DNA from: Rufibacter hautae
GTDB taxonomy: Bacteria; Bacteroidota; Bacteroidia; Cytophagales; Hymenobacteraceae
DNA length: 64,000 nt
Direction: 5' to 3'
Assembly: GCF_008271695.1 (NCBI RefSeq)
Contig: NZ_VKKY01000001.1
Location: 62,001 to 126,000 of the forward strand
Part shown: piece by piece, positions 83 through 60,191 of the stretch
Position numbering within the stretch: the stretch's first letter is position 1
Layout: every line of letters starts with the position of its first letter
Translations under genes and position numbers: made by a program
The notes under the pieces: model-generated
The model's input: the letters and a program-made list of their open reading frames with translations, nothing else
Database searches by the model: none
Told to the model about the DNA's origin: nothing

Positions 83-491
83 AGTGTTTGGCTTGATGTA
101 GACTTAACACGGGAGTTAAGCAAGTTCCAAAGTTTAAAAAAATTGCTGAAACATCACGCTTAAAAAATGGCGTTCTGAGCATGATTTTAAGGAATCAGCC
201 CTGAAACGAACCGGTTCCGCAATTCACCTCTCCCCTATCTGCCCTTCGTTTTCCCCTGAAGCTGGCAGCAGATTCTACAGGAAACGGATTTACGCCTAAG
301 TTCCTAGAACTGTGCTCCTTTGGGGGTGCCTCTAGTCAGTTAGGTGTAGCTACAGAAGAATATAAATAAAAAATGTTGGGGTTGGATTAGGGGTAAAGCC
401 AGAGGAGGGTGTCTATACTCTTGAAAATGCATATAAGCGCTTTGCATCCTTTGTCAAAATTACTAACCCTCACCTTCAACTTAACGAGAAA
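83..491. other. divergent intergenic region
   Basis: About 410 bases between two divergent genes for exported proteins. It must hold both promoters. For the rightward gene a partial match to the Bacteroidota promoter is seen: TTG at 421-423 and ATCCTTTG at 446-453, with a rather long 22-base spacer. One degenerate copy of the 36-base repeat lies at 172-207. Nothing coding is seen. Confidence 0.5.
172..207. repeat. 36-base palindromic element, copy 1 (degenerate)
   Basis: Left end GTTCTGAGC, right end AATCAGCCCTGAAAC. The right arm matches the family well and the left arm is eroded. It lies between divergent genes, so it cannot be a simple terminator here. Confidence 0.55.
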
Positions 492-1319
492 ATGAAATTC
501 CCTAAATTATTACCAGTCCTTTTTGCTGCCTCTTTATTCATCATGGGTTCTTGTACCGATGACGAAGATTCAACTCCTATTGATGGTATCCAGGCTTGTA
601 AAGCAGTGAAGATCACCGATGAAGACGGTGTGACCTCGGTTACCTACGCCAATGACAAGATCTCCTCTTTCTCTAATGGTGAGTTTGGCTCAGTAAACGT
701 ACAGTACCATTCTTCTGGCAGCAAAGCCGGCAAACCTTCTAAATTGGTATTTACGGATGGTGATCAGGGCGACGGAACCTTGGAGTACACCTATGATGAC
801 CAAGGCAAACTGACAGGCACCCTGCTGACCGGCGACGACATGGATGGCATGGGCATGGCCTCTGAAATTGAATACAGCGGCAACCGCATCAGCAAAATCA
901 CCCGTTTGGCTGTAATCCCCGCCGAGGAAGACGAAGAACCCGTAACGTTCTCTATGGGCTGGTCCACTTTCCAGTATGATTCCAAAGGCAACGTCTCCAA
1001 AGCCACAGAGTACTATGACAACCCGCTCACCGAGGAAGACGAGTCTACTTCTCCTGCTGCCACTACGGAGTACACCTATGACGCTAAAAACAGCCCAATC
1101 TCTGCGTTTGAGGCGCTCTTCGTTGGATTGCCGGGCTTGAACCCTGCCAGCGTGAACAACGTGATCACCGAGGTTCGGAAAGAAGGCAGCACCGTAGACA
1201 AAGACCTTTCTTACACCAACACCTACGTGTTCAACGACAAAGGCTACCCTACCAAAATCACCAAAACCACCCAGAACAATGATGTAACCACCATGAACGT
1301 GGAATACAGCTGCCAATAA
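492..1319 (+). CDS. DUF4595-like lipoprotein
   Basis: 275 residues. The N-terminus is a lipoprotein signal with lipobox MGSC (Cys21), so it is probably anchored in the outer membrane or periplasmic face. The mature part is built of short repeats of the YD/RHS-like type (Y.YDDQGKL, EYSGNRISKI, FQYDSKGNVSK, EYTYDAKNSP, YVFNDKGYPTKI), as in the Bacteroidota DUF4595 family, whose role is unknown. A clear intrinsic terminator follows 22 bases after the stop, so it looks monocistronic. The family assignment rests on the repeat pattern only. Confidence 0.7.
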   Translation: MKFPKLLPVLFAASLFIMGSCTDDEDSTPIDGIQACKAVKITDEDGVTSVTYANDKISSFSNGEFGSVNVQYHSSGSKAGKPSKLVFTDGDQGDGTLEYTYDDQGKLTGTLLTGDDMDGMGMASEIEYSGNRISKITRLAVIPAEEDEEPVTFSMGWSTFQYDSKGNVSKATEYYDNPLTEEDESTSPAATTEYTYDAKNSPISAFEALFVGLPGLNPASVNNVITEVRKEGSTVDKDLSYTNTYVFNDKGYPTKITKTTQNNDVTTMNVEYSCQ

Positions 1320-1341
1320 GAATTCTGGAACGCTTACCTGT

Positions 1342-1367
1342 AAAGGCCTGGGAAACCAGGCCTTTTT
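1342..1367 (+). terminator. intrinsic terminator after the DUF4595-like gene
   Basis: A stem AAAGGCCTGG / CCAGGCCTTT with a GAAA loop is followed by a T run. It ends the upstream lipoprotein transcript. Confidence 0.85.
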
Positions 1368-1423
1368 TGTGCCTTTTTCTAAAGCAGCACCAAAACAGAA
1401 TAGCAAGGGTTTCGTGCTTTGTT

Positions 1424-1459
1424 GTTTTAGGGCTATTCTTGGGAAAACGGCTGAAAAAC
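1424..1459. repeat. 36-base palindromic element, copy 2
   Basis: Arms GTTTTAGGGCT and GGCTGAAAAAC around TTCTTGGGAAAA. It lies about 100 bases after the lipoprotein gene and upstream of the hydrolase gene. Confidence 0.7.
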
Positions 1460-1525
1460 AGAGGTTGTCTGCCGCGGCTGAATTCTCTAAATTGTCGGCG
1501 CCAAACTATACGCAAAGAACAATTT

Positions 1526-3400
1526 ATGAAACCAACCCTCTGGCAATGGCTGGTGCTGGTGCTCCTGTGGCCCACCCTCACCGCCTCTGCCCAAACCCTT
1601 ACAGATTCGGCTTACATCCGGCAGAACTACACCAAAACCGAGCACCAGATTGCCATGCGCGACGGTACCAAACTGTTTACCGTGGTGTATGCGCCCAAAG
1701 ACAAAAGCCAGAAATACCCCATTATGCTTAGCCGCACGCCTTACTCGGTGGGACCGTACGGCGCGGACAAGTACAAAACCAGCATCGGGCCATCCCCAGA
1801 CATGATGCGCGAGGGCTACATTTTCGCCTACCAGGACGTGCGCGGCAAGTACATGAGCGAGGGCGAGTTCATCAACATGAAGCCCATCATCGCCAAGAAA
1901 GGCAAGAAGGACGTGGACGAGACTACCGATTCCTATGATGCCATCGCCTGGCTCGTGAAGAATGTGCCCAACAACAACGGCCGCGTGGGCCAGTGGGGAA
2001 TCTCCTACCCCGGCTACTACACCACCGTAGGCCTGCTCAGCAACCACCCTGCCCTTAAGGCTGCCTCACCGCAGGCGCCGGTTACCGATTGGTTCTGGGA
2101 CGATTTTCACCACCACGGCGCCTTCTTTTTGCCGCACGCCTTCAACTTCCTGGCTTCCTTCGGGCAGCCGCGCCCGCAGCCTTCGCCTACCGGGGCGCCG
2201 CGTTTCAACCACGGCACGCCAGACGGCTATGATTTCTTCCTGCGCATGGGCGCCTTGCCCAACGCCAATGCCCAATACCTGAAGAACAATGTCTCCTTCT
2301 GGAACGACATCGTGCAGCACCCAAACTACGATGCCTTCTGGCAAGCCATGAACATCCGGCCGCACCTGAAAAACATCAAGCCCGCGGTGATGGTGGTGGG
2401 CGGCTGGTTTGATGCCGAGAACCTTTTCGGGGCGCTGGAAACCTACAAAACCATTGAGAAAAACAACCCCGGCACGTACAACACCATCGTGATGGGCCCT
2501 TGGTTCCACGGGGGCTGGTCGCGCTCCACCGGTGAGCACCTAGGCAAAGTCTCTTTCCGCCAGAACACCTCAGAGTTCTACCGACCAAACATTGAGGCCA
2601 AGTTCTTCCGCCATTATCTAAAGGAGAACGGCAAAGGCCAACCGGCCCTCCCCGAAGCGTACATGTTCAACACCGGCGCGAACCAGTGGCGCGAGTTTGC
2701 CGCCTGGCCGCCTAAAAACACCCAGGAACGCATACTGTACTTCGGGGAGAACGGCAAGCTGAGCTTTGAGAAACCGGCTGCTGCCGGCCCTGGCTTTGCC
2801 GAGTTCATCAGCGACCCCAGCAAACCCGTGCCGTTCTCGGAGGAAACCACCACCGGCATGACCCGCGAGTACATGACCGATGACCAACGTTTCGCCAGCC
2901 GCCGCCCAGATGTGTTAACCTACCAGACCGATGTTTTAACCGAAGACATCACCCTGGCTGGCGAGATCCTGTCCGCGCTCAACGTTTCCACAACCGGCAC
3001 CGATGCCGACTGGGTGGTGAAACTGATTGACGTGTACCCAGACACCGCCCGGGAAAATGCGCATAACCCGGCCTCGGTGAAAATGGGTGGTTACCAGCAG
3101 ATGGTGCGTAGCGAGGTGCTGCGCGGCCGTTTCCGGAACAGCTATGAGAAACCAGAGCCTTTCACGGCCAACCAGGTAACGGCTGTGAACGTGCCTTTGC
3201 AGGATGTGCTGCACACCTTCAAGAAAGGCCACCGCATTATGGTGCAGGTGCAGAGCACGTGGTTCCCGCTCGTAGACCGCAACCCGCAGAAGTATGTGCC
3301 TAATATCTATGAGGCCAAGGCCGAGGATTTCCAGAAGGCGACCCACCGGGTGTACCACAATGCCCAGCAACCCTCTTACCTAAAGGTGAAGATTCTGTAG
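1526..3400 (+). CDS. CocE/NonD family serine hydrolase (X-Pro peptidase/acylase-like)
   Basis: 624 residues, exported: signal peptide MKPTLWQW...TASAQ (about residues 1-23). The alpha/beta hydrolase domain holds the nucleophile in GQWGISYPG (Ser160), an acid in GGWFDAENL (Asp296) and a His in GPWFHGGW (His328), the usual CocE order. The C-terminal part (about 400-624) fits the PepX_C jelly-roll domain. Members hydrolyse amide or ester bonds (X-Pro dipeptides, cephalosporin side chains, cocaine); the substrate here is unknown. The frame opens further upstream with a GTG, but the ATG at 1526 starts the signal peptide. A strong terminator follows. Confidence 0.9.
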   Translation: MKPTLWQWLVLVLLWPTLTASAQTLTDSAYIRQNYTKTEHQIAMRDGTKLFTVVYAPKDKSQKYPIMLSRTPYSVGPYGADKYKTSIGPSPDMMREGYIFAYQDVRGKYMSEGEFINMKPIIAKKGKKDVDETTDSYDAIAWLVKNVPNNNGRVGQWGISYPGYYTTVGLLSNHPALKAASPQAPVTDWFWDDFHHHGAFFLPHAFNFLASFGQPRPQPSPTGAPRFNHGTPDGYDFFLRMGALPNANAQYLKNNVSFWNDIVQHPNYDAFWQAMNIRPHLKNIKPAVMVVGGWFDAENLFGALETYKTIEKNNPGTYNTIVMGPWFHGGWSRSTGEHLGKVSFRQNTSEFYRPNIEAKFFRHYLKENGKGQPALPEAYMFNTGANQWREFAAWPPKNTQERILYFGENGKLSFEKPAAAGPGFAEFISDPSKPVPFSEETTTGMTREYMTDDQRFASRRPDVLTYQTDVLTEDITLAGEILSALNVSTTGTDADWVVKLIDVYPDTARENAHNPASVKMGGYQQMVRSEVLRGRFRNSYEKPEPFTANQVTAVNVPLQDVLHTFKKGHRIMVQVQSTWFPLVDRNPQKYVPNIYEAKAEDFQKATHRVYHNAQQPSYLKVKIL

Positions 3401-3429
3401 ATTTTCTTCATCTTCTGCCTCTTTCAACT

Positions 3430-3471
3430 AAAAAGGCCGCTCTTTTCTGGAAGAGCGGCCTTTTTGTTTTT
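3430..3471 (+). terminator. intrinsic terminator after the CocE-like gene
   Basis: Stem AAAAAGGCCGCTCTT / AAGAGCGGCCTTTTT with a six-base loop and a further T run. Confidence 0.9.
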
Positions 3472-3557
3472 AGCCGAAATCCCTTAAAACAGGCCAGAAA
3501 CAGCTTTCTCAATCGTCCAGAAAAAATTTTTGAAAAAAAATTCCATGAAGGCCATTC

Positions 3558-3591
3558 TTCATCTTCTCTTCATCTTGCCCCAGTAGTTTTG
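3558..3591 (+). promoter_or_regulatory. promoter with 11-base-spaced direct repeats (box 1)
   Basis: TTCATC occurs at 3558-3563 and again at 3569-3574, one helical turn (11 bases) apart. A perfect Bacteroidota -7 element TAGTTTTG follows at 3584-3591. Tandem hexamers at 11-base pitch are the usual target of dimeric OmpR/PhoB-type regulators, and one is encoded at 6334. The same layout, with the same distances, recurs at 4707-4740. Confidence 0.75.
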
Positions 3592-3643
3592 ACGCATTAA
3601 TCATTTAAAACGACTCAAACACGAACCAAAACGATCCACCAAC

Positions 3644-4387
3644 ATGAAAAAGCTAACCTTTTTTGTCGCCTCTTTCCTGATTGCCGGTACTTCTTTCGCA
3701 CAGACCACCACTACCGCCAATGGCATCGGGCAGACCACCTCTAAAACCACTCACGGCACCACTGTAAGCACCACGACCAAAACCGATGTCTCTGGTACCG
3801 TGACCACCGATGCCGCCGCCAAGGGACAGGCAGTGAGCGAGGTTGCCAAGTCAAAAGCCAAAGCAAAAAAAGACGAGACCTCCATGGAAGTAAAAGAGTC
3901 GGCCAAAGCGAGCAAAGACAAGGCCAAAGCCAAAAAAGAAGAGTTGAAAGCCCAGCACGAGGAAGCCAAAGCGCAAAAAGAAGCATCCCTTGACGCTGCC
4001 GCCGAAGCCAGAGCCGAATTGAAAGCCAAAGCCAAGGCCCAAAGAGAAGAGCAGGAAGAAGCGGCGGCCCAAACCAACGCTGACCTGAAAGTAAAAGCCA
4101 AAACCGATGTAGAGGTAGCCACCCAGGAAGTGGAAAACCACGGCCAAGCGGTGAGCACCGTTGCCAAGGCAACCCTGGAAACCGGCAAAGAAAAAGGTCA
4201 GGCCGTGAAAGCCGCCGCCTCTGAGAAACGCCAGAGAGCCGGCAGAATTCAACCTGAGACCGGTGCAGCCGCAAAGGTAAACGCTTCCAGCGCCAGCCGT
4301 GCCAAAGTGAACACCGGCCTTTCCACCAAAGGCGTGCGCCCCGTGAAAGTGAACGCAGGCGCCAACCTGAAAATCGGCCAGAAATAA
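3644..4387 (+). CDS. secreted Lys/Ala-rich protein A, unknown function
   Basis: 247 residues with a signal peptide ending TSFAQ (residue 20). A Thr-rich segment (21-55) follows, then a long Lys/Ala/Glu-rich stretch (about 65-165) that should form helix or coiled coil, and a basic C-terminus (RPVKVNAGANLKIGQK). The C-terminal pattern (KPVKV..G....K.G.) and overall make-up match the protein at 4774, so the two look like diverged paralogues. The promoter carries regulator-like direct repeats also shared with that gene. I do not recognise a domain. An envelope or extracellular role is inferred from the signal peptide only. Confidence 0.7.
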   Translation: MKKLTFFVASFLIAGTSFAQTTTTANGIGQTTSKTTHGTTVSTTTKTDVSGTVTTDAAAKGQAVSEVAKSKAKAKKDETSMEVKESAKASKDKAKAKKEELKAQHEEAKAQKEASLDAAAEARAELKAKAKAQREEQEEAAAQTNADLKVKAKTDVEVATQEVENHGQAVSTVAKATLETGKEKGQAVKAAASEKRQRAGRIQPETGAAAKVNASSASRAKVNTGLSTKGVRPVKVNAGANLKIGQK

Positions 4388-4461
4388 TCCCAACCTATCT
4401 CAGCTGCCTTTGCCCCGGCAAAGGCAGCTGAAACTTCTCCTCACCCTAACACACCAACACC

Positions 4462-4572
4462 ATGAAACTATTTATCAGCATCTGCTTTGTACTGAATTGG
4501 CTTCTGGCCAACTCCGCTCCGGCGTATGGCACCCCTGTGCAACGGTTTCCAAGCGCCACCCACTCTGAGTAA
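4462..4572 (+). CDS. secreted microprotein, 36 residues
   Basis: A short frame beginning MKLFISICFVLNWLLANSAP, i.e. a start Met, Lys and a hydrophobic core, with a possible cleavage at SAPAYG, then about 13 further residues ending THSE. It sits 74 bases after protein A and before protein B, in the same direction, with no terminator evident between it and protein A. It could be a real secreted peptide, or the broken remnant of a third paralogue, since only the signal peptide is intact. Function unknown. Confidence 0.45.
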   Translation: MKLFISICFVLNWLLANSAPAYGTPVQRFPSATHSE

Positions 4573-4706
4573 TAGGTAATTCCTTTACAGGATGAACTTT
4601 AAAGAGGAAAACAGCGCTGCCGTTTTGGCCTCTTTTTTGCAAAACTCTCCCAGAATCATTTTTCTAAATTGATTGTCTACTTAAAAGATGCACTGAAACT
4701 GAATTA

Positions 4707-4740
4707 TTCACCTTCTCTTCATCTTTCCATAGTAGCTTTG
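4707..4740 (+). promoter_or_regulatory. promoter with 11-base-spaced direct repeats (box 2)
   Basis: TTCACC at 4707-4712 and TTCATC at 4718-4723, 11 bases apart. The -7 element TAGCTTTG is at 4733-4740. The distance from the second hexamer to the -7 element equals that at 3558-3591. It predicts a transcript start near 4745 and so supports the ATG at 4774 (or 4759) rather than the upstream TTG. Confidence 0.75.
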
Positions 4741-4773
4741 AAGTATCTAGCGTTTAGAATGCGTCCCACTTAT

Positions 4774-5265
4774 ATGAAATTATCCTTTTTACTGGCAGCG
4801 GCGGCCCTTTGCACCGGTACTGCATTTGCGCAAGGCAATGAACCGGCCACGCACCAGGCTGTAGCGATAGTCATGGCCAAGGCAGAAGTTACCACCGGCG
4901 AGAAGGCAGCTCCAGTAGATGCATCTGCCCTCACAGAAAGCACCGCGCTTTTGCAACAGGAAAAACCGCGCAAAGCCGAAAAGCAGAAAGGCAAAGAACA
5001 GCCCAAAGAGGAACAAAAGGTAAAAGAGGTGGCCACGGCCAAACGTCAGGGCAAACCCGAGAAAGTGTCAGGTGATGCAGACGCAGATGGCCTGATTTCC
5101 CGGGGCTCAGCGGCCCGTCCGCAAAGCGCAGCCCGCCCTGGCCGAGGGGTTAATGCCGGCAACACCGCAAAGGCAGTGGGCAACGCGGCCAAAGCGGTGA
5201 AATCTGCCAAGCCGGTGAAAGTGGGCGGTTTAGGAGTGGGCCGCATCAAAGTGGGCAAAAACTAA
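4774..5265 (+). CDS. secreted Lys/Ala-rich protein B, unknown function
   Basis: 163 residues with signal peptide MKLSFLLAAAALCTGTAFAQ. The mature chain is short and basic: a Lys/Glu-rich middle (KPRKAEKQKGKEQPKEEQK, about 71-89), then an Ala/Gly/Lys-rich tail ending in a valine-lysine pattern (AKPVKVGGLGVGRIKVGKN). No known domain is seen. Tail and promoter resemble those of protein A at 3644. The frame extends up to a TTG at 4669, but that lies upstream of the promoter; an in-frame ATG at 4759 is the only other candidate. Confidence 0.7.
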   Translation: MKLSFLLAAAALCTGTAFAQGNEPATHQAVAIVMAKAEVTTGEKAAPVDASALTESTALLQQEKPRKAEKQKGKEQPKEEQKVKEVATAKRQGKPEKVSGDADADGLISRGSAARPQSAARPGRGVNAGNTAKAVGNAAKAVKSAKPVKVGGLGVGRIKVGKN

Positions 5266-5364
5266 CCCTCCTTTTTAGTACGTATCTTCCAGTAACACCA
5301 AATTAGCCGCTTCTGATTGGAGGCGGGCCTTCTCTTCTACTACCAAATGGATAGATTTACTCAG

Positions 5365-6312
5365 ATGAAAAAACGCTTTGGATTCTGTTTCCTGTTCAGT
5401 TTCTGGCTCACCTCCGCTGCCTACGCAGAAGAAAAAGCGCTAACCTTTGCGGCTCCTTCTAAGGCATTGGCCCAAGATACCGCCACGAAGAACGGCTGGT
5501 GGACCGTGGGTCTGGAAACGGCTAATAATGCCTCTTTTTTTGGGCGCAATACGGCCCAGCAGTACCCCTACATAGCAGCCTCGCTTACCTATACCCATAC
5601 CTCGGGGTTGTTCATCTCGGCGATGTCGTATCAGTTGTTCAACACCGAGGACTTTATTGATGAGACCGATGTCTCTGCCGGCTACAGCTTCAAAATAGGC
5701 AACCGCTTCGATGGTCTGGTGAGTTACTCGCGTTTTTTCTTCGGGCCCAACACGCCTTTGGTGAAATCGGTGACGTCTAACGCGGCCACTGCCTCCGGTA
5801 CGCTGGACTGGAAATACCTCTTGACCGGGGTGACCGCCAGTTATATCTTCGGCGGCAGCAGCGACCTTTTCACGGTGTTGGACAACTCCCGTTATATTCC
5901 CCTGCAGAACCTCTGGAAAGGCAAGAACCCGGTGGGCATCGACCCTAAGATCAGCATCATCGCCGGCACCCAGGAGTTCGCCGAGACCCACACGGTAGAG
6001 ACACAGAAGAAGAAAAAAGGCCTGGGTACCGTTTTAGACCCATTGAACCCCATTGGCAATGGCAACGGAAATGGAAATGGCAACGGGAACGGCAATGGCA
6101 ACGGAAATGGCGGTACCACTACTACCAGCACCACTACTACCAGCACCCGGTTCAAGGTCCTCAACTATTCCATCACGGTGCCGCTGGTGTTCAGCTTGTA
6201 CAACGTGGACATTGAGCCGGCCTACCGCTTTGCGCTTCCGGTGAACCGCCTGGAGGGCGATGAGTCCAAAGCACAGTCTTTTGTGTCGCTTAACCTTAGC
6301 TATACTTTTTAA
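5365..6312 (+). CDS. outer-membrane beta-barrel-like protein with Asn-Gly repeat
   Basis: 315 residues. A signal peptide (MKKRFGFCFLFSFWLTSAAYAE) precedes alternating hydrophobic segments with aromatic ends (YIAASLTYTH, GLFISAMSYQLF, GLVSYSRFFF, LLTGVTASYIF, YSITVPLVFSLY, SFVSLNLSYTF), and the chain ends in Phe. Both traits are typical of outer-membrane barrels. A low-complexity insert at about residues 230-258 holds some nine Asn-Gly pairs followed by Thr/Ser runs, probably a surface loop. The stop is 21 bases before the response-regulator start, so the three genes 5365-8564 may be co-expressed. The function is unknown; in-frame ATGs at 5347 and 5365 compete. Confidence 0.65.
   Translation: MKKRFGFCFLFSFWLTSAAYAEEKALTFAAPSKALAQDTATKNGWWTVGLETANNASFFGRNTAQQYPYIAASLTYTHTSGLFISAMSYQLFNTEDFIDETDVSAGYSFKIGNRFDGLVSYSRFFFGPNTPLVKSVTSNAATASGTLDWKYLLTGVTASYIFGGSSDLFTVLDNSRYIPLQNLWKGKNPVGIDPKISIIAGTQEFAETHTVETQKKKKGLGTVLDPLNPIGNGNGNGNGNGNGNGNGNGGTTTTSTTTTSTRFKVLNYSITVPLVFSLYNVDIEPAYRFALPVNRLEGDESKAQSFVSLNLSYTF
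6054..6109 (+). repeat. in-frame hexanucleotide repeat (Gly-Asn)
   Basis: Nine imperfect six-base units of the form GGMAAY in a row code for an alternating Gly/Asn tract inside the barrel-like protein. In-frame repeats like this can change length by slippage without breaking the gene. Confidence 0.8.
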
Positions 6313-6333
6313 TCCGCTACCAACCCTACCCCT

Positions 6334-7008
6334 ATGCACATCCTCATTGTAGAAGACGAAACCAGTCTGGCTACTGAACTCATGCACTTTCTGGCGCAGG
6401 AACACTATATCTGTGATTGGGCCTCCAACGGCCGGGAAGCCTCTGAGAAGATCGCGGTCAACCGCTATGATTTCATTCTGCTGGACCTGGGCCTGCCAGA
6501 TTATGAAGGCATGGACCTGCTCAAGGAGATAAAGGAGATAGACCATGACCCCGCCATTATCATCTTAACGGCCCGCGGCGCTCTGGAAGACCGGATCAAA
6601 GGACTGGGCCTGGGGGCCGATGATTACCTGCCCAAACCGTTCTCTTTGCTGGAGTTGCAGGCCCGCATGCAGGCTGTGCTTCGCCGCAAGTTCAAGCTGA
6701 AATCATCCTCGGTGGCTTTCCACGGATTTGAGATCGACAGCAGCGCCCGCCGCGTGACCTTCGGGTCTCAGGAGATTGTGCTTACCAAAAAGGAGTTTGA
6801 TATTCTGCATTACCTGCTGCTGCACAAAAACCGCATCTTAACGCGTCTGCAACTCACGGAGCACATCTGGGGCAACATCCTGGAAGACGACTATGACTCC
6901 AACTACATTGATGTGCATATCAAAAACCTACGCAAAAAGATATCGGCGCACACCACCACCGACTGGCTGGAAACCGTGCGGGGCGTAGGCTACCGGTTAA
7001 CTGTTTAA
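6334..7008 (+). CDS. OmpR/PhoB-family response regulator
   Basis: 224 residues. The receiver domain (1-115) has the acidic pair Glu7-Asp8, phospho-acceptor Asp51 (FILLDLGLPD), Thr79 and Lys101 (PKPF). The C-terminal winged helix (about 125-224) ends with the typical RGVGYRL. It should be phosphorylated by the kinase encoded at 7248 and bind direct repeats as a dimer. The 11-base-spaced hexamers upstream of 3644 and 4774 are the obvious nearby candidates. The gene follows the barrel-like gene closely; the kinase is 239 bases downstream. Confidence 0.93.
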   Translation: MHILIVEDETSLATELMHFLAQEHYICDWASNGREASEKIAVNRYDFILLDLGLPDYEGMDLLKEIKEIDHDPAIIILTARGALEDRIKGLGLGADDYLPKPFSLLELQARMQAVLRRKFKLKSSSVAFHGFEIDSSARRVTFGSQEIVLTKKEFDILHYLLLHKNRILTRLQLTEHIWGNILEDDYDSNYIDVHIKNLRKKISAHTTTDWLETVRGVGYRLTV

Positions 7009-7247
7009 TGTGTTACTTAAATTAATGGACTGATGTATAATTTTCTTATTTGGGAGCTGCTAGAGGAAAAGGTCCGGATTTGGGTAAGTGGCCGTTTCTA
7101 GCCTGTTTTAGCCAAAATAGGCTAGAAACGACTTATATTGATCTAACTTCAGGTCTAAAAGTAAAAAGCCGATCTTCAAATTTCTAAATCTTCCCCTTCC
7201 TAGGTTCATTAGCACCTGAACTCCTTAAAAAATCTGCACAATCCTTA
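7009..7247. other. gap between response regulator and kinase
   Basis: 239 bases, AT-rich, with a 36-base repeat at 7094-7129. A weak variant of the upstream boxes (TTCAAATTTC, AAATCTTCCCC, then TAGGTTCA around 7176-7208) suggests the kinase may have its own promoter. Confidence 0.4.
7094..7129. repeat. 36-base palindromic element, copy 3
   Basis: Nearly perfect 16-base arms, GTTTCTAGCCT and AGGCTAGAAAC at the ends. The TAG/CTA pair differs from most copies but is matched on both sides. Confidence 0.85.
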
Positions 7248-8564
7248 ATGCGTCTTCAATCCAAACTTGCCCTTTTCAGTGCCGCCTCTAAGATCTTGAT
7301 CCTGTTGTTGCTGGTGTTGGGGCTGCCTATTCTGGTGAACAAAGTGGCCCTGCTCAACGCCGACGAGCGGCTCATGCAGAAAGAGGAAAGGATGTACCAG
7401 ATCATTGAGGAACAGGGTATTGAGTCTTTCATCACCAGCGAAACAGGAGCATACGGGAGCTATAACCTGTTCAAAGAGGAATTCATCTCGTTGGAGGAAA
7501 TTTCATCTAGCAAGGTGGTGAACAGCATTGAGAACAGCCTGCGCAAGGTAGACAACCAGGTAGTAAACTACCGGGTGCTGTCTTCCACCTTTGACTTAGG
7601 TGAGAAGCGGTACCTGCTGGAAATTGGGCGGTCGTTGGCGACCATTCACAATAACAGCAAAACGCTGCAGGCCTACGCCTTGTATTTCCTGGCCGCCGTG
7701 GTGCTGTTGACCGTTTTCTCTGATCTGGCTTTCAGTAAGATTCTGCTGCGCCCGCTCACGCTTATCGTGAAACGCCTGCAGCGCGTGGAGCACCCCAGCA
7801 CCTTCACCCCTAAAAAGCTCCAGACCTCCACCGATGACTTCCTGTACCTCAACAACACCATCAACGCCATGATGGGCCAAATTCAGGAGGCGTTCCAGAA
7901 GGAAAAGGAGTTTATTGGCAATGTCTCGCATGAGCTGCTCACGCCGGTGTCCATCCTGCAGACGCGGCTGGAGAACCTGCTTGCGGACCCAGATACCCCG
8001 GAAAGCATGCTGGAGAAACTGGTAGACAACCTCAGAACCCTACACCGGCTAAAGAACATCATCCAGGCGCTGTTGCTCATCTCCCGCATTGAGAACGAGC
8101 AATACCTGCGCAACGAAACCGTGGATCTCACCCAATTGGCCGAGGAAGTAGCCGAGGAGATAAAGGAGCGCGCCGAAGCCCGGGAGGTAAACCTGCACGT
8201 GGAGATCACCGGCGACTACACCTTAACCAAAGCAAACCAGTCTCTGCTGTTTACCATGCTGTTCAACGTGGTGAACAACGCCATCAAATACAACAAACCA
8301 GAAGGCAGCATCTGCATCAAAGGCCAGCCCCACGGTAAAGACTACGAAATTGCCGTGAAAGACACCGGCGTGGGCATCAAGGAAGAGCAGTTGCCGCACA
8401 TTTTCAGCCGGTTCAAGCGTTTGCATGCCCCAGACGGCGAAAGCCACGGCCTTGGCCTAACCATCGTGAAAACCATTGCCACCTTCCACGGCATTGACCT
8501 TTCTGTAGAATCTGTCCCAAGTGAGGGCACCACGTTCCGATTTCTGTTTCCCCGCCAAGCCTGA
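7248..8564 (+). CDS. membrane sensor histidine kinase
   Basis: 438 residues. One membrane segment lies at about 14-31 and a second at about 142-160, with a roughly 110-residue sensor region between them that has no domain I recognise. A HAMP-like linker (about 165-218) leads to the HisKA dimerisation box FIGNVSHELLTP (phospho-acceptor His228). The ATPase domain shows the N box (NVVNNAIKYN, about 340-349), G1 (DTGVGI, Asp372) and G2 (HGLGLTIVK, about 400-408). It presumably phosphorylates the regulator at 6334. The signal sensed cannot be read from the sequence. Confidence 0.92.
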   Translation: MRLQSKLALFSAASKILILLLLVLGLPILVNKVALLNADERLMQKEERMYQIIEEQGIESFITSETGAYGSYNLFKEEFISLEEISSSKVVNSIENSLRKVDNQVVNYRVLSSTFDLGEKRYLLEIGRSLATIHNNSKTLQAYALYFLAAVVLLTVFSDLAFSKILLRPLTLIVKRLQRVEHPSTFTPKKLQTSTDDFLYLNNTINAMMGQIQEAFQKEKEFIGNVSHELLTPVSILQTRLENLLADPDTPESMLEKLVDNLRTLHRLKNIIQALLLISRIENEQYLRNETVDLTQLAEEVAEEIKERAEAREVNLHVEITGDYTLTKANQSLLFTMLFNVVNNAIKYNKPEGSICIKGQPHGKDYEIAVKDTGVGIKEEQLPHIFSRFKRLHAPDGESHGLGLTIVKTIATFHGIDLSVESVPSEGTTFRFLFPRQA

Positions 8565-8569
8565 TGCCT

Positions 8570-8605
8570 GTTTTCAGGCTATTTCCTTAAAAACGCTGCG
8601 GAAAC
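8570..8605. repeat. 36-base palindromic element, copy 4 (degenerate)
   Basis: GTTTTCAGGCT and CGGAAAC ends around ATTTCCTTAAAAA. It begins six bases after the kinase stop codon. Confidence 0.6.
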
Positions 8606-8625
8606 AGAGAATCCCCTTGTACCCC

Positions 8626-9543: not shown

Positions 9544-9552
9544 CCCTTTCCT

Positions 9553-52620: not shown

Positions 52621-52624
52621 GGTA

Positions 52625-52975: not shown

Positions 52976-52986
52976 AAAGCAATTCA

Positions 52987-53020
52987 GTTTGGGTGGGTTT
53001 TGAAGAAACAGGCCGAAAAC
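52987..53020. repeat. palindromic element, copy 26 (34 bases, degenerate)
   Basis: GTTTGGGTGGGTTTTG and GAAACAGGCCGAAAAC. Upstream of the ATL gene. Confidence 0.45.
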
Positions 53021-53064
53021 GCATTTGCCTATTTTTTTCTGCCGCGCTTTTAAACCTTCCCCTT

Positions 53065-53100
53065 GTTTTTAGGTCTAATTTCTAAAAATAGCCAAAAAAC
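53065..53100. repeat. 36-base palindromic element, copy 27
   Basis: GTTTTTAGGTCTAATTTC and AAAATAGCCAAAAAAC. Forty-five bases from copy 26, the closest pair in the window. Confidence 0.65.
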
Positions 53101-53504
53101 GCGATAAATTTACCAGCTGCATGGTTAGCCGAGAGACTTTGCCTCTGGCCCGGCGGCTAATTGCCCTTTATACCATCCCCCAAACCTGAACCCGGAATGA
53201 CCTGTATGTCCTTTTGTTTTTTGAAAGTCCAGCCTGCTGGCAACTTGCCGCCCGGTAAGCCCCAATCCCCAACAATTGCCGTTTTCGTACCAAACCCATA
53301 AACATTTACGGCAGAATTACTTAAGCATAGTAGCGTCATGCCTGCGTGCCCGGCGGCTCTTGCTTTCACCCAGAGGAACCTACAAGCTACAGGCAATGGT
53401 TATCGTTATCCTACCTGTGGCAGAAATCGGTTCCCTTATTTAAAACAAAACCATAGTAACCACCTGTTTCAATACAAACGAGAGAGTCTAGTACCACCAA
53501 TTCT

Positions 53505-54611
53505 ATGAAAATAAAACACATTGTCTATGCACTGCTTATCCTTGGTTTCGGAGCTTTAGTGTATTACCGCATATCAAGCAACAAAGCCGAAGCGGGGGCC
53601 GGTGGCCCGGGTGGCGGAGGCGGCAGAGGTCCGGGCGGACCAGGTGGCCCCGGAGGCGGAGGCGCCCCGGCCATGCGGGTGAGTGGCATGGTGGCCACGC
53701 CGCAGGAGTTCGCCAACTCGCTTTCCGTGACGGGCTCTATTGAAGCCAACGAGCAGATTGAGGTAAGAGGCCAGGTCTCTGGCTTGGTGCGCGGCATCTA
53801 CTTCCAGGAAGGCAGCAACGTACGCAAAGGCCAGGTGCTGGTGAAAATAGATGATTCTGAGCTGCGCGCCAACCTGGCTCAGGCCCAGACCCGCCAGACG
53901 CTGGCCGCCGAGAACGAAAGACGCGCCCGCCTGCTGCTGGAGAAAGAAGCCATCAGCCGCGAAGAATATGACGTAGCCCGGGCCGAACTCAAAACCGCCC
54001 AGGCGCAGATCCAACTGGTACGCGCGCAGCTGGCCAAAACCTCCATTACGGCGCCCTTCTCCGGTAAAGTGGGGTTAAGAGCCGTTTCTACGGGAAGTTT
54101 CCTGTCTCCTGAGACGGTGGTGACCAACCTGGTAAGCGTCAATCCTATTAAAATCACCTTTGCGGTGCCTGAGAAATACGCCGGCCAGGTAAAGCAGAAC
54201 ACAGAACTGACCTTCACGGTGGCGGGCACGCAGGAGAAATACACCGCCAGGGTGTACGCCATTGAGCCCAGCATTGCCGCTGCCACCCGTACCCTGCAAC
54301 TGCGGGCCCGGGCCAATAACCCCAACGGCACCCTGCTGCCGGGTTCTTTCGCCAACATTCAGCTGCCGCTTACGGTTATACCAGACGCGCTCCTGATCCC
54401 CACCCAGGCGGTGGTTCCGGTGCAGAACGGTAAGAAAGTATTCATCGCCCAAAACGGCAAAGCCAAGGAAGTGATGATTGAGACCAGCACCCGTACCGAG
54501 AAGGACCTATTGGTGACTTCCGGGCTGAGTGCCGGAGATACGGTGTTAACCACCGGGGTGATGTCTTTGAAAGCAGGAAGCCCCGTGAAAGTGGCCCTGA
54601 CCCAAAAATAA
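53505..54611 (+). CDS. RND efflux periplasmic adaptor (HlyD/AcrA family)
   Basis: 368 residues. One N-terminal membrane anchor (about 5-22), then a striking Gly/Pro-rich linker (about 31-54), then the lipoyl/barrel-sandwich half (VRGQVSGLVRGIYFQEGSNVRKGQVLVKID), a short hairpin (LLEKEAISREEYDVARAELKTAQ), the second lipoyl half (ITAPFSGKVGLRAVSTGSFL) and the beta-barrel and proximal domains. It bridges the pump encoded 13 bases downstream and the TolC protein at 57751. Confidence 0.93.
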   Translation: MKIKHIVYALLILGFGALVYYRISSNKAEAGAGGPGGGGGRGPGGPGGPGGGGAPAMRVSGMVATPQEFANSLSVTGSIEANEQIEVRGQVSGLVRGIYFQEGSNVRKGQVLVKIDDSELRANLAQAQTRQTLAAENERRARLLLEKEAISREEYDVARAELKTAQAQIQLVRAQLAKTSITAPFSGKVGLRAVSTGSFLSPETVVTNLVSVNPIKITFAVPEKYAGQVKQNTELTFTVAGTQEKYTARVYAIEPSIAAATRTLQLRARANNPNGTLLPGSFANIQLPLTVIPDALLIPTQAVVPVQNGKKVFIAQNGKAKEVMIETSTRTEKDLLVTSGLSAGDTVLTTGVMSLKAGSPVKVALTQK

Positions 54612-54624
54612 AAACCAATTAAAG

Positions 54625-57600
54625 ATGAGTTTATCCACCACAAGTATAAAACGGCCCGTCTTCACCATCGTGTTGAACCTGCTCCTCATGTTGTTTGGGG
54701 TGATTGGGTACACGTTTCTGGGGATACGGGAATACCCTTCCATTGACCCGGCCATCGTGTCGGTGAGTACCAGTTACTCGGGCGCCAACTCAGACATTAT
54801 TGAGTCGCAGATCACCGAGCCCCTGGAGAAAGCCATCAACTCCATTGACGGTATCCGCAACATTTCCTCGTCCAGTAACCAGGGTAGAAGCAACATCAAC
54901 ATTGAGTTCAACCTGGAGAAAAACCTGGAAGAGGCCGCCAACGACGTGCGCGACAAGGTATCGCAGGCGGTAAGAAGCCTGCCCGAAGACATTGACGCGC
55001 CGCCGGTAGTTTCCAAAGCCGACGCTGACTCTGAGCCGATCATCACCATGACCGTACGCAGCGAGAAAAGAGACGCGCTGCAGCTTTCTGATTTCGCCGA
55101 GAACGTGATTTCCCAGCGCCTTCAAACCATTCCCGGCGTGAGTAGCATCCAGATCTGGGGGCAGAAGCGCTACGCCATGCGTTTATGGCTCGATCCTATG
55201 AAACTGGCCTCTTACGGCTTAACCGTAGCCGATGTGCGCACCGCCCTGAACCGCCAGAACGTGGAGTTGCCTACTGGTAAGGTAAGCGGCCAGAACACCG
55301 AGTTGACGGTCAGAACCCTGGGGAACCTATCTAACGAGCAGCAGTTCAACGACCTCATCATCTCTTCTGAAGGCGAAACCATCACCCGATTCAGTGACAT
55401 CGGCCGGGCCGAACTGGGACCTGAGAACCTGGAAACCAAAATGACGGAATCTGGCGTGCCCATGGTGGGGATGGCCATCATTCCGCAGCCAGGCACGAAC
55501 TACCTGGAAATTGCCGGTAACTTCTATGACCAGTTTGACAAGCTCAAGAAAGAGCTGCCTGAGGACCTGAAGCTGGACATTGCCATGGACAACACCTTGT
55601 TCATTAAGAAATCAGTGACGGAGGTAGCCGAGACCATCCTTATCTCCCTGGTGCTGGTAATTTTGATCATCTACCTGTTCTTCCGGGACTGGGGCATCGC
55701 TTTCCGTCCGTTGATAGACATTCCGGTGTCTTTGATTGCCACGTTCTTCATCATGTACCTGGCCGGTTTCTCCATTAACGTGTTGACTTTGCTGGCCATC
55801 GTGCTGGCGACCGGTCTGGTGGTGGATGACGGTATTGTGGTAACGGAGAACATCTACAAAAAAGTAGAGGAAGGCATGTCGCCTATTGAGGCAGCTATCA
55901 AGGGTTCCAACGAGATCTTTTTGGCGGTTATCTCCATCTCCATCACATTGGCCGCGGTGTTCTTGCCGGTAATCTTCCTGGAAGGTTTCGTGGGTAGGCT
56001 GTTCCGAGAATTTGGGGTAGTGATTGGCGCGGCCGTGTTGATTTCGGCTTTCGTGTCGCTGACCTTGACGCCCATGCTGAACGCGTACCTGATGAAAGGC
56101 GGCGTGCACAAACGCTCTAAGTTCTACGAGTGGACCGAGCCTTTCTTCCAGCGGATGAACTCTGGCTACGCCGAAGCCCTGACCAAATTCATGAAACGGA
56201 AATGGTTGAGCTTCCCTATCATTGTGGTGTGTCTGGGCTTGATTGCCTTGTTCTACAACATCCTGCAGAAAGAAACGGCCCCTTATGATGACCGCAGTAT
56301 GCTCCGGATCATGGCCACAGCTCCCGAGGGTGCTTCCTATGAATACATGGATCGTTTCATGCAGGAATTAACTGCCGTAGTAGAGGATTCGGTGCCCGAG
56401 AAACAAGTGAACCTGGTGATTACCTCGCCTGGTTTCGGGGGTTCTGGATCGGTGAACAGCGGGATGATGCGTCTGGCCCTGAAACCACAGGAAGAACGCG
56501 AACGCTCGCAGAAACAGATCTCCGACCAGCTTTCCAAGGTGGTGCGCCGGTTCCCAGAGGCCAGAACCAACGTGATTCAGCAGCCTACCATCTCGGTGAA
56601 CCGCCGCGGGGGTCAGCCTATCCAATACATTATCCAGGCGCCTAACTTCCAAAAGTTGCAGGAGAAGATTCCGCAGTTCATGGAAGCCGTGAACAACGAC
56701 CCTACGTTTGTGATGGCCGATGTGAACCTGAAATTCAACAAGCCGGAGATCAACATTTCTATTGACCGCGAAAAAGCCCAAAGCTTGGGCGTGTCGGTGA
56801 TTGATGTGGCGCAGACGCTGCAGTTGTCTTTGAGCGGCCAGCGCTTTGGGTACTTTTTGATGAACGGACGCCAATATCAGGTGATGGGCCAATTTGACCG
56901 CCCAGACCGGGACGATCCGATGGACTTGACCTCCCTCTTCGTGCGCAGTTCCACTGACCAATTGATTCAGCTGGACAACCTGGTCACCATGCAGGAGCTC
57001 AGCAGTCCGCCGCAGTTGTACCACAACAACCGGTACTTGTCGGCTACAGTTTCGGCTGGTCTGGCGCCGGGCAAGAGTATCGGGGACGGTATTGAGGCCA
57101 TGGACCGCATCAAAGCACAGGTATTGGATGAGACCTTCTCCACCGACTTAGGCGGGGAGTCCCGTGACTTCGTGGAAAGCGGTTCCAACACCATGTTCGC
57201 TTTCGGGTTGGCCTTGTTGCTGATTTACCTCATCCTTGCCGCTCAGTTCGAGAGCTTCATTGACCCGTTCATCATTATCCTGACGGTGCCTATGGCAGTA
57301 GCCGGGGCTATGCTTTCTTTGTGGTTGTTTGGGCAGACCTGGAACATCTTCAGCCAGATCGGGACGATCATGCTCATCGGGCTGGTGACGAAGAATGGTA
57401 TCCTCATTGTGGAGTTTGCAAACCAATTGCGCGAAGAAGGTAAGTCTAAGATGGACGCCATCATTGAAGCCTCGGAGGCCCGTCTGCGCCCCATCTTGAT
57501 GACCAGTTTGGCCATCGCCCTGGGTGCCTTGCCTATTGCCCTTGCCTTGGGAGCGGCTGCGCAGAGCCGGATTGGTATGGGAGTTGTGATTGTAGGCGGT

Positions 57601-59070: not shown

Positions 59071-59093
59071 GGGCTACTTTTAGTACAGAAAGC

Positions 59094-59129
59094 GTTTCGG
59101 GGCTGTTTCAGGTAAAACAGCCCCGAAAC
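59094..59129. repeat. 36-base palindromic element, copy 28, terminator-like
   Basis: GTTTCGGGGCTGTTT and AAACAGCCCCGAAAC, extended by outer arms AGAAAGC (from 59087) and GCTTTCT (to 59136) and followed by TATTTTT: a terminator for the efflux operon. Confidence 0.93.
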
Positions 59130-59162
59130 GCTTTCTTATTTTTAAGGCATCAGACAACGGCT

Positions 59163-60077
59163 ATGCGAAACAACCTTGCCCTCTCGGCGCGCAACTATTT
59201 TGGGGAGGAAAACCTGGACCGGGTGCACCTGCTCAGGAAAAATACCTCGTGGCTAGAGGCTCAGCTCACCCATCCCGGCACGGTATTTCTCCCGTTCCAG
59301 AACCTTCAGCCTTTCCTTTCGGAGGAGCGCCAGTTGGTGCCGTTCTCAGTGCATGATCTTCAGGTGAAGGGCTTATCTGTTGCGCCCGTGCTGCTGGGCA
59401 TCCGGGAGGAACGCGCCTATTTTGCGGTGGATGTATCAGAAACGAACTATAAACCGCTGGCTATAGGAAACTTTCAGGAGTTACGCGAAGCGACATTGCA
59501 ACTTCCCCGCCCCGACAGTGCTTTGCTGGCGTACGCGAAAGCCATGCTGCATTGGAACAAGCAACACCAGTTTTGCGGCGTCTGCGGCGCCCCTACCCTT
59601 TCCAAAGAAGCCGGGCACATGCGCCAGTGCACCAACGCAGATTGCCAGACCTCCCATTTTCCGCGCACCGATACCGCTGTGATTACCATGGTTACTTGCC
59701 AGGGCAAAGGACTCTTAGCGCGGCAGGCTTCCTGGCCTCAGGGGATGTACGCCTCTATTGCTGGATTTCTGGAGCCCGGCGAGACCCTGGAACATGCCGT
59801 GGCCCGCGAGGTGCAGGAAGAGGTAGGCCTCGTTGCCCATACCGTACAGTACCATTCCTCGCAGCCCTGGCCTTTCCCAGCCTCTATCATGGTAGGCTTT
59901 ACCGCAGAGGTAGAAAGCACCAACCTGCAAATTGATCCGGAAGAAATTGAACAGGCCCGTTGGTTCACCCGCGAGGAATTGAAAGACCTCGTAGCCACTG
60001 GCGAGATCAAACTTCCACCCGCCCTTTCCATCTCCTACAGGTTGATCCAAGATTGGCTTACTAGTGAAGTGGATTGA
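59163..60077 (+). CDS. nudC: NAD(H) pyrophosphatase / NADH-capped RNA decapping Nudix hydrolase
   Basis: 304 residues. An N-terminal beta domain; zinc ribbon with Cys138, Cys141, Cys156 and Cys161 (FCGVCGAP, QCTNADCQTSHFPRTD); then the Nudix box starting at Gly201 (GFLEPGETLEHAVAREVQEE; Arg215, Glu216, Glu219, Glu220). The SQPWPFP motif that marks NudC for NAD is present (SSQPWPFPASIM). It splits NADH to NMNH and AMP and removes NAD caps from RNA. It begins just after the palindrome that ends the efflux operon. Confidence 0.95.
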   Translation: MRNNLALSARNYFGEENLDRVHLLRKNTSWLEAQLTHPGTVFLPFQNLQPFLSEERQLVPFSVHDLQVKGLSVAPVLLGIREERAYFAVDVSETNYKPLAIGNFQELREATLQLPRPDSALLAYAKAMLHWNKQHQFCGVCGAPTLSKEAGHMRQCTNADCQTSHFPRTDTAVITMVTCQGKGLLARQASWPQGMYASIAGFLEPGETLEHAVAREVQEEVGLVAHTVQYHSSQPWPFPASIMVGFTAEVESTNLQIDPEEIEQARWFTREELKDLVATGEIKLPPALSISYRLIQDWLTSEVD

Positions 60078-60156
60078 GGCGACCCAAGAAATAACCGGCT
60101 ATAGGAAGTACCTCAGAAAGGAAACACTTAATCTAAGGCTAGAAAAAACGAACTCC

Positions 60157-60191
60157 GTTCCAGACCTGATTTTAAAAAACAAGCCTGAAAC
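60157..60191. repeat. palindromic element, copy 29 (35 bases), with outer arms
   Basis: GTTCCAGACCTGATTTT and AAAACAAGCCTGAAAC, extended by AACGAACTCC (from about 60147) and GGAGTTCGTT (to about 60201), flanked by A and T runs. It lies between two convergent genes and is a likely bidirectional terminator. Confidence 0.88.

Follow-up and report, generated by a model that had tools for sequence, protein, structure and literature searches.

A genus-restricted, dyad-symmetric DNA motif inherited in place across Rufibacter genomes, a possible uptake-signal-like tag

Rufibacter genomes carry a dense family of short DNA sites built on the frame GTTT-N9-TTT-N4-AAA-N9-AAAC, a dyad-symmetric arrangement of four A/T tracts that is restricted to this genus within its family. 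The sites are inherited in place, selection maintains their frame, silent sites included, and the motif is not primarily a hairpin, as its arms covary little at most sites. The motif is a recognition site in double-stranded DNA and not an RNA hairpin. We tentatively propose, with somewhat less than even confidence, that it is an uptake-signal-like self-tag bound by a surface receptor in natural transformation.

The window, i.e., the whole analyzed stretch of 64,000 nucleotides of Rufibacter hautae, had been described in a first-pass annotation as holding 29 copies of an intergenic, palindromic element with a fixed 36-base core. Using a profile built from 464 kb of genome sequence, with a threshold of 13 bits, and gene calls from a purpose-made simple codon-bias caller, we identified 40 sites in the window, 37 outside gene calls and three inside. 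Compared by ranges and counts, this agrees with a dense and mainly intergenic family, but coding DNA also holds some genuine copies. A consensus scan of the window gave 34 matches, weak ones included, of which 26 were best at exactly 36 bases, and Rfam at gathering score returned no match there. The peak at 36 was borne out by half-site spacing, with a maximum at a total length of 36 (193, versus 50 at 35 and 44 at 37, part of the latter two being slip in T runs); information nevertheless reaches beyond the 36-bp core and spans 40 bp, CYGTTT...AAACRG. The T tracts lie on the 5' side of the consensus and the A tracts on its 3' side, so that the T tracts come before the stem, and the A/T tracts are spaced ~ 11–12 bp, about one helical turn, around a degenerate inner part. 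A further T tract noted 11 bp farther out was absent from the flank logo and is probably due to chance. The consensus is palindromic while most single copies are not: only 8 of the 40 have at least 13 of the 16 core positions paired, among them the copies at 7094..7129 (15/16, 37 bits), 18984..19019 (16/16, 39 bits) and 59094..59129 (15/16, 39 bits); positions are given without strand. The three sites within gene calls are located at 17027..17062 (21 bits), 61881..61916 (31 bits) and 55181..55216. The last belongs to a group of 21 further profile sites of at least 13 bits (span 1361..55216), of which the other 20 are listed as intergenic and start at 1361, 1424, 4622, 8570, 11133, 13821, 13974, 23743, 27455, 32764, 35060, 36030, 36158, 43152, 46442, 48195, 50532, 51543, 52985 and 53065. 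The site starting at 32764 overlaps a start codon, and the weakest (14–16 bits: 1361, 43152, 48195 and 55181) may be chance matches.

A profile search at genome scale, as proposed with the first-pass annotation, yielded 281 sites, versus 3 for the reversed profile, in the 464 kb; at 0.61 sites per kb this extrapolates to ~ 3,500 in 5.84 Mb. Exact frame matches numbered 633 genome-wide versus 1 for the control, and density ranged between 0.48 and 0.61 per kb in three Rufibacter species. The search in related Hymenobacteraceae, also suggested earlier, found 186–1,561 exact frame matches per genome in all 16 Rufibacter genomes and 0–3 in 104 other genomes of the family. In the sister genus (G016) the motif is a different one, asymmetric and with a tract spacing of ~ 11 bp; a symmetric first pattern had given 1 site only. 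The asymmetric pattern has 1,399 matches in G016, and 423 sites were counted in 500 kb (0.85 per kb), nine of them left unclassified. No convincing long phased motif was found in 100 kb of each of G017, G019, G020, G155 and G341.

The earlier claim that most copies lie near gene 3' ends holds: for 25 of the 28 window sites in co-directional or convergent gaps a stop codon is found within 105 bases, e.g., at 3466..3501 (66 bp past the stop; 30 bits) and 34709..34744 (61 bp past the stop; gap occupied in 11/11 species). Copies in divergent regions, likewise claimed, amount to nine window sites, including those at 172..207 (9/16 core pairs, 30 bits), 30154..30189 (between conserved blocks adjoining both starts; gap occupied in 7/11 species) and 43226..43261 (10/12 species). 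Convergent gaps of at least 36 bp are nearly all occupied (47/52 in G000, 21/21 in G010 and 20/23 in G002), and most sites in co-directional gaps are closer to the preceding 3' end than to the following start (81 vs 35 in G000, 82 vs 28 in G006, 39 vs 11 in G002, and 37 vs 23 in G010, p 0.09). Such placement, together with the dyad symmetry of the four A/T tracts, favors the main rival explanation, in which a dedicated dimeric Rufibacter DNA-binding protein occupies thousands of transcription-unit ends and divergent gaps, where it would block read-through, insulate supercoiling or organize the nucleoid. We consider this boundary role possible, though on the doubtful side. It has to accommodate copies within genes and divergent gaps that are occupied (36/53, 12/21 and 12/23 in the same three species) without an annotated 3' end, as well as the asymmetric motif of the sister genus. 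No candidate protein was found for it in HU (PF00216), the only family examined; one strong HU copy is present in each of 26 genomes tried, inside and outside the genus, and no genus-specific paralogue was found with PF00216. A fully chromosome-wide boundary system, with a Rufibacter-specific protein on thousands of 36–40 bp dyad sites and an asymmetric form in the sister genus, seems unlikely, if by no means negligible; we know of no bacterial system of this kind.

Sites are spaced more regularly than random (CV 0.92 vs 1.18 ± 0.07 in G000), maybe in part because there is one site per gap. Hardly any in-gene site has another site within 300 bp (1 in 66 kb of G000 and 0 in 57 kb of G006, p 0.005 and 0.03), with ~ 0.17 per kb farther away; no median shift was seen in G002, which has six in-gene sites, and G010 has only two. 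This regularity is in accordance with an uptake signal, but drive alone does not predict the empty stretches of 10 and 19 kb that surround one respiratory operon. The longest element-free stretches measure 10.8 kb in G000 and 21 kb in G006. An interpretation as a foreign island was rejected for the longest of G002 and one of the longest of G000, which share ORF lengths and 79.5% DNA identity; 7 of the 8 ORFs scanned in this G000 stretch carry cox, SCO1, UbiA or cytochrome families.

Hairpins had been offered as one explanation of the element, either as terminators or for RNA stability. In G000, near-perfect palindromes make up 15/59 convergent, 22/124 co-directional, 2/43 divergent and 0/40 in-gene copies, and a separate hairpin adjoins 20/59, 29/124, 1/43 and 1/40, respectively; a terminator-type hairpin thus suits part of the convergent and co-directional copies, but not the divergent-gap and in-gene copies of this genome. 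In G010 and G002, where the consensus is both strong and palindromic, near-perfect copies occur in divergent gaps too (7/17 and 4/14), with adjoining hairpins in 0/17 and 0/14. Genome-wide arm pairing is close to the expectation from column composition, with an excess only at pairs 5–7 in G000. In transcripts, G.U scarcely outnumbers A.C (184 vs 162, summed), and among between-species changes it does not (44 vs 46 and 112 vs 145). Judged by covariation, wobble and silent sites, an RNA hairpin was rejected as a general role, and a general role in RNA stability is not supported.

Compensatory pairing was nevertheless evident at some sites. Among 11 orthologous sites, two exceeded all 500 shuffles in inner pairing: the perfect palindrome at 30668..30703, at the apex of a terminator-like stem (0.91 vs 0.60 expected, 11 species), and the palindromic copy at 38819..38854, at the top of a longer stem that has a T tail (0.86 vs 0.59; gap occupied in 12/12 species). 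Compensatory changes are likely at two more, the palindromic copy at 45453..45488, 3' of a highly conserved small gene (0.65 vs 0.50, reached by 3/500 shuffles; 6/6 species), and the copy at 12230..12265, 24 bp past a stop (0.56 vs 0.46, reached by 4/500; 11/12 species). The remaining seven gave no such signal (28–497/500). Other gene-end copies are associated with terminators in various ways: at 9553..9588, in a convergent gap, the palindrome extends outward into a longer stem (35 bits; fold), and the copy at 60157..60192, located between convergent genes, falls within the apex of a terminator-like stem (profile and fold). The non-palindromic copy at 24792..24827, right after a stop, adjoins a separate terminator hairpin (0.40 vs 0.49 expected; 11/11 species), and that at 31526..31561 provides, with its outer T tract, the tail of a terminator hairpin (12/12 species). 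Gene-end copies are sometimes built into or beside a terminator. These apex copies, the compensatory changes and the enrichment after stop codons are what favors a primary terminator role, with the palindrome as a bidirectional hairpin ending transcripts. We regard it as improbable given the seven sites without pairing, the near-expected pairing overall, the divergent-gap and in-gene copies of G000 that are not hairpins, the T tracts that precede the stem, and the ordinary hairpin terminators that adjoin many copies. The order of stem then U tract is present only where the element is flanked by additional stem and tail sequence. A terminator scanner was too noisy to show whether ordinary terminators have been lost in the genus, calling, e.g., 24/48 convergent gaps in G000 (reversed 11/48) and 11/14 in G016 (reversed 2/14).

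The element had also been compared with REP/BIME families, whose palindromic repeats, associated with RAYT transposases, are described as short, abundant and frequently located 3' of genes (PMC3733652). In a comparison of occupied and empty gaps between two species, gaps > 1,500 bp and overlapping genes left out, 136 of 204 gaps were occupied in both, 59 empty in both and 9 discordant, which argues against mobility. Orthologous sites lie at similar offsets while their inner sequence differs; for 25 of the 162 G000 elements the aligned position in G006 was empty, in several cases through misalignment. Of 25 gaps followed across the genus, 11 were occupied in at least 80% of species, 10 in at most 20% and 4 in between (two of the 25 map to one gap in relatives); the gap holding the copy at 42053..42088 was occupied in 7/7 species, and empty gaps include co-directional ones of about 100–200 bp. 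The motif consensus lacks the GTAG tag, and Y1_Tnp matches, 0–6 per genome in 11 Rufibacter genomes, do not evidently track the number of elements: G012 lacks Y1_Tnp despite 607 frame matches, and 6 of 7 genomes tried from other genera have Y1_Tnp without the element. A RAYT mover was rejected on these grounds, and a REP/MITE-like repeat moved by a transposase is very improbable, also because in-gene copies are without indels in 5/6 alignments. It would fit the many near-identical copies in G010 and G002 and the few extra copies found in single species, G013 and G014, within longer gaps. The split of 21 of the 25 gaps into mostly occupied and mostly empty favors the boundary role, and it is a pattern not predicted by uptake drive alone.

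Between species, frame positions were identical at 0.926 versus 0.760 for inner positions, after dropping 24 of 162 G000 elements with more than two alignment gaps. This conservation favors the boundary role; a reservation for the uptake reading is that generic intergenic TTT/AAA triplets are likewise conserved (0.886). In genes, third codon positions in the frame were identical at 0.883 (128 positions), versus 0.680 at TTT/AAA outside the frame in those genes, which favors the uptake reading and speaks against a hairpin. In-gene copies aligned without gaps to other genera in 5 of 6 alignments, homologues being available for few of the 40 host sites, so coding copies probably arise by point mutation. 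Codon bias of the host genes showed no difference. In-gene density was 0.015 (G010), 0.040 (G002) and 0.140 per kb (G000), i.e., copies in genes are rarer where the consensus is strongest, which speaks against the uptake reading.

The consensus carries 28, 45 and 46 bits, far above the ~ 11 needed for location, and is strong in R. immobilis and R. ruber. Counting frames in 4 of the 16 Rufibacter genomes, we observed an excess of perfect over singly mismatched copies in two, G010 (75 vs 20) and G002 (57 vs 22, 200 kb each), whereas the consensus is relaxed in G000 (57, 86 and 105 frames with 0, 1 and 2 mismatches) and G006 (49, 74 and 76), against expectation for an uptake signal. Such an excess would fit young transposons too; it is described as an anomaly of USS/DUS, and in combination with a strong consensus as unusual for intracellular binding sites (PMC1626085), which at 45–46 bits weighs against the boundary role. 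Density is not far from the ~ 1,000 bp spacing reported for USS (PMC7811141), A/T tracts lie about 11–12 bp apart in both genera, species have their own consensus forms, mostly at shared positions, and reuse at terminators resembles that in Neisseria (PMC3630211). The likeness to uptake signal sequences lies in the density, the even spacing, the in-gene copies, the lineage forms and a consensus that is strong in two species. Under this uptake reading, a surface receptor would recognize the tag during natural transformation, and tagged fragments would be taken up and recombined more often, so that the tag would accumulate at ~ 0.6 per kb. It would be remade in place into the current form of each lineage, would be best tolerated in non-coding DNA while arising in genes by point mutation, and at gene ends could be reused as part of a terminator.

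Two further features sit poorly with the uptake reading. The Rufibacter motif has dyad symmetry, and to our knowledge known uptake signals do not. The type IV pilus ATPase, the usual motor in USS/DUS species, was found above cut-off (PF00437) in 0 of 11 Rufibacter genomes, with short sub-cut-off matches in five (E 4e-4 to 9e-4); G016, full of its own motif, also lacks it, and G021, the one genome with it, has few motif copies. Uptake would thus have to proceed independently of a pilus, as has been proposed for Riemerella. In this genus of the same phylum, R. columbina is described as preferring its own DNA (PMC7965970), and the competent species R. anatipestifer and R. columbina are stated to lack pilus homologues, with a novel uptake machinery hypothesized (PMC8459023). 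Our literature search, broad and limited, found no report of Rufibacter DNA uptake or competence and does not exclude one.

Should the motif prove to be an uptake signal, we would know of no earlier one in Bacteroidota; it would offer a candidate signal for a phylum with self-preference in R. columbina and no pilus found, and would be a recognition motif whose whole layout changes between sister genera. Should it prove to be a boundary site, it would represent a new bacterial way to mark transcription-unit ends. Under both readings, the exact sequence of the frame can be used in pull-down, uptake and mutation assays.

Among known systems, IHF/HU-type bending sites are ~ 35 bp long with A/T tracts near a central dyad, as in the motif, but the Rufibacter consensus is much stronger and no genus-specific HU-family gene was found with PF00216. 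Intrinsic terminators are alike in that some copies form or adjoin terminator stems at gene ends; they differ in that most Rufibacter copies pair incompletely, occur in divergent gaps and genes as well, and have T tracts before, not after, the stem. The DUS of Neisseriaceae are short, non-palindromic words of 10–12 bases, whereas the Rufibacter motif is a spaced frame of 36–40 bp. Shared with DUS dialects are the thousands of copies, the lineage dialects and the inverted pairs at terminators (PMC3630211). REP/BIME elements are similarly short, abundant, palindromic and often 3' of genes, but the Rufibacter motif has no GTAG tag, hairpin requirement or RAYT relation and is inherited in place, and a hairpin is not a feature of each of its copies. 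Compared with the USS of Pasteurellaceae, the motif stands apart by its palindromic form and degenerate inner part, is strongly biased to transcription-unit ends, and occurs without a pilus ATPase above cut-off; the likeness lies in about one copy per kb, a strong consensus, A/T tracts separated by roughly one turn of the helix, a consensus differing between sister clades, spacing more regular than random, and mostly non-coding copies with coding ones arising by mutation (PMC1626085, PMC7811141).

A dispersed family was present over the range in which the first-pass annotation had reported 29 intergenic palindromes with a 36-base core (172-60191), with 26 of the 34 matches from a consensus scan having a best length of exactly 36 bases. 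With a cut-off of 13 bits, a symmetrised profile built from 464 kb of the genome detected 281 sites there, compared to 3 with the reversed profile; 40 such sites fall within the window (C1:62001-126000 of the 5.84 Mb genome). The distance between half-sites peaked at 36, in agreement with the core length proposed initially. The motif information spans 40 bp, i.e., CYGTTT, a GC-rich inner part, TTTY and two free bases, followed by the mirror image. Conservation is highest in four A/T tracts: TTT occupies 2-4 and 14-16 and is mirrored in the other half, and the tracts in each half lie about 11-12 bp apart. The exact frame, GTTT-N9-TTT-N4-AAA-N9-AAAC, occurs 633 times in the whole genome, versus once for the reversed pattern. 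At the two central bases, self-complementary dinucleotides were avoided (14/115 in R. ruber CCM 8646, 5/96 in R. immobilis MCC P1 and 55/281 in R. hautae).

Exact frame matches numbered 186-1,561 in all 16 Rufibacter genomes and 0-3 in each of 104 genomes from five other genera of the family. An order-wide search of 291 genomes singled out four Rufibacter genomes, with the highest other genome reaching 15 against 8 in its control. A pattern of 24 fixed bases matched at least 117 stretches in named genomes, and among the 80 matches listed all titles were Rufibacter or Sabulibacter ruber. A viral contig of 39,252 bases (L178, record G120), possibly a Rufibacter prophage, carries four copies with at most one mismatch. 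The open-licence literature searched on repeats and palindromes in Hymenobacter, Rufibacter, Hymenobacteraceae and Bacteroidetes, and on uptake signals and natural competence in Bacteroidetes, yielded no description of the motif among the matches listed, and Rufibacter was unmentioned in those listed by a broad open-licence search combining it with competence.

The consensus holds 28 bits in R. hautae and 45-46 bits in R. immobilis and R. ruber, where about 11 are enough to locate the sites. Frames with 0, 1 and 2 mismatches numbered 75, 20 and 26 in R. ruber and 57, 22 and 27 in R. immobilis; the corresponding values were 57, 86 and 105 in R. hautae and 49, 74 and 76 in another Rufibacter genome, G006. 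The inner form is species-specific, GTTTAGGGGC in R. immobilis and GTTTTNGGCC in R. ruber.

Elements occupied 47/52 convergent, 106/183 co-directional and 36/53 divergent gaps in R. hautae, 21/21, 45/75 and 12/21 in R. ruber, and 20/23, 44/75 and 12/23 in R. immobilis. Sites in co-directional gaps lay closer to the stop codon of the gene before them; this shift was clear in three species but did not reach significance in R. ruber. It is possible, though less likely than not, that a putative protein binds the element at transcription-unit boundaries, which would explain this placement, and the dyad, better than a self-tag in natural transformation. Spacing was more regular than random placement, and in-gene sites were almost never found less than 300 bp from another site (R. 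hautae, G006); the element-free stretches around one same respiratory operon, 10 kb in R. hautae and 19 kb in R. immobilis, count against a need for even spacing. The divergent gap at 29936-30366 has no element in 4 of 11 species; in at least two of these, G001 and G015, its whole middle block is absent while the blocks beside both starts are conserved, which indicates that this copy is dispensable.

The element is not a hairpin in general. Dyad pairing at inner positions equalled the prediction from column composition in R. ruber and R. immobilis, and in R. hautae it exceeded the prediction only at pairs 5-7 (0.56 vs 0.45, 0.42 vs 0.28 and 0.43 vs 0.36). Transcript-strand mismatches, summed over 17 pairs at 119 co-directional sites, showed a slight excess of G.U over A.C (184 vs 162); changes between two of the species showed none (44 vs 46 in the palindromic class, 112 vs 145 in the rest). 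Near-perfect palindromes in R. hautae were found at 15/59 convergent, 22/124 co-directional, 2/43 divergent and 0/40 in-gene sites. Because of the strong consensus they are common everywhere outside genes in R. ruber (14/29 convergent, 33/66 co-directional, 7/17 divergent) and R. immobilis (12/24, 24/52 and 4/14). Hairpins abutting the element numbered 20/59 convergent, 29/124 co-directional, 1/43 divergent and 1/40 in genes in R. hautae, a gradient like that of the palindromes there (random intergenic control 13/295), while R. ruber had 7/29, 8/66 and 0/17 in the three gap classes (control 18/300) and R. immobilis 11/24, 12/52 and 0/14 (control 18/298). Since they are all but missing from divergent gaps, the terminator hairpin is an addition to the element at gene ends, as at 24792-24827, where folds and species comparison indicate an unpaired element with a separate terminator hairpin abutting it. 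For some copies, hairpin structure at gene ends can be real: of 11 orthologous sites, each represented in at least six species and tested with 500 shuffles, compensatory change kept the palindrome beyond all shuffles at two, the pairing at two further sites was reached by 3 and 4 of 500, and predicted folds placed some elements at the apex of longer stems. The terminator-type hairpin suggested initially thus holds for part of the gene-end copies but not as a general role, the pairing being mostly as composition predicts.

Occupied and empty sites were compared between R. hautae and G006 (median protein identity 95%), and 195 of 204 gaps were concordant (136 occupied in both, 59 in neither, 9 in one only). 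Across aligned copies, identity was 0.926 for the frame (1,651 positions), 0.760 for inner positions and 0.717 for inner A/T; TTT/AAA triplets elsewhere between genes reach 0.886, so that the contrast there with generic tracts is modest. In genes it is strong: identity at third codon positions is 0.883 in the frame (128 positions), compared to 0.724 (192) in the inner part of the element and 0.680 (2,257) in other TTT/AAA of those genes. This sample comprised 32 aligned sites and 1 unaligned, and at 27 of the 32 the G006 counterpart likewise reaches 13 bits. In five of six alignments of such proteins to other genera, no gap fell at the site, which speaks for an origin of in-gene copies by point mutation. 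Among 25 gaps followed across 12 Rufibacter species, 11 held an element in no less than 80% of the species compared, another 10 in no more than 20%, and the remaining 4 in an intermediate fraction; shared copies mostly lie at like offsets from the stop codon, and their inner sequence varies by species. Two neighbouring gene pairs (14060-18211 and 19052-23404) match one same pair in most relatives, so that a gene pair appears to be duplicated within the window.

The sister genus has a different, asymmetric 29-bp motif, ASTTTTTMGGSCTRAAASSMTASCGTTTT (28.9 bits), whose A/T tracts are spaced by about 11 bp. Strand counts for TTTT-N8-AAA-N3-TASCGTTTT were 744 and 655 in the sister-genus genome G016, against 0 and 1 in the controls, and 35 and 23 in G021, of the same genus (58 genome-wide, with 24 motif sites in 100 kb, L243-L247). 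Among 60 genomes searched, one other had a single match, and the pattern was absent from the remaining 57, including 14 Rufibacter. G016 contains 423 motif sites in 500 kb versus 2 reversed, about 0.85 per kb (e.g., segments L179-L183, L223-L242), with 115 of 414 classified sites in genes. Overall the motif favours the strand opposite transcription (co-directional 116 vs 74, in genes 72 vs 43), though not significantly so just after stops (39 vs 26, p 0.14); gaps of the convergent (30, 28) and divergent (29, 22) classes show no strand preference. It occupies 126/210 co-directional, 35/44 convergent and 38/53 divergent gaps. Short over-represented words occur in other genera, i.e., CCCTAGGT in G019 (L189-L193), TATATATA in G017 (L184-L188) and ATTT-N3-AAAA in G023 (L248-L252).

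Uptake-signal-like properties, together with the precedent of Riemerella, reported to lack pilus homologues, lead us to rank an uptake-signal-like sequence slightly ahead of a boundary-bound protein; by analogy, we tentatively propose, at somewhat less than even probability, that the element may be such a sequence, recognised by a candidate receptor. PMC1626085, PMC3630211 and PMC7811141 describe uptake signals as dense, regularly spaced and over-perfect in consensus, with coding copies that arise by mutation, tracts separated by roughly one turn of the helix, forms that differ by lineage, and reuse in terminators. The Rufibacter element is likewise dense and regularly spaced, with tracts at a similar distance, lineage forms, coding copies and terminator reuse, although its consensus is over-perfect in some species only. 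It differs in that the usual machinery is missing from the Rufibacter genomes searched: no type IV pilus ATPase scored above cut-off in 11 of them or in G016, and among 29 genomes tried this ATPase (T2SSE) did so in G021 only. According to PMC7965970, Flavobacterium johnsoniae has pilus-like homologues, yet was not competent in that study. For two Riemerella species, PMC8459023 reports that no pilus homologues were found, that several essential genes are of unknown function and that a novel uptake machinery is hypothesised; Riemerella columbina, of the same phylum as Rufibacter, is described as preferring its own DNA (PMC7965970).
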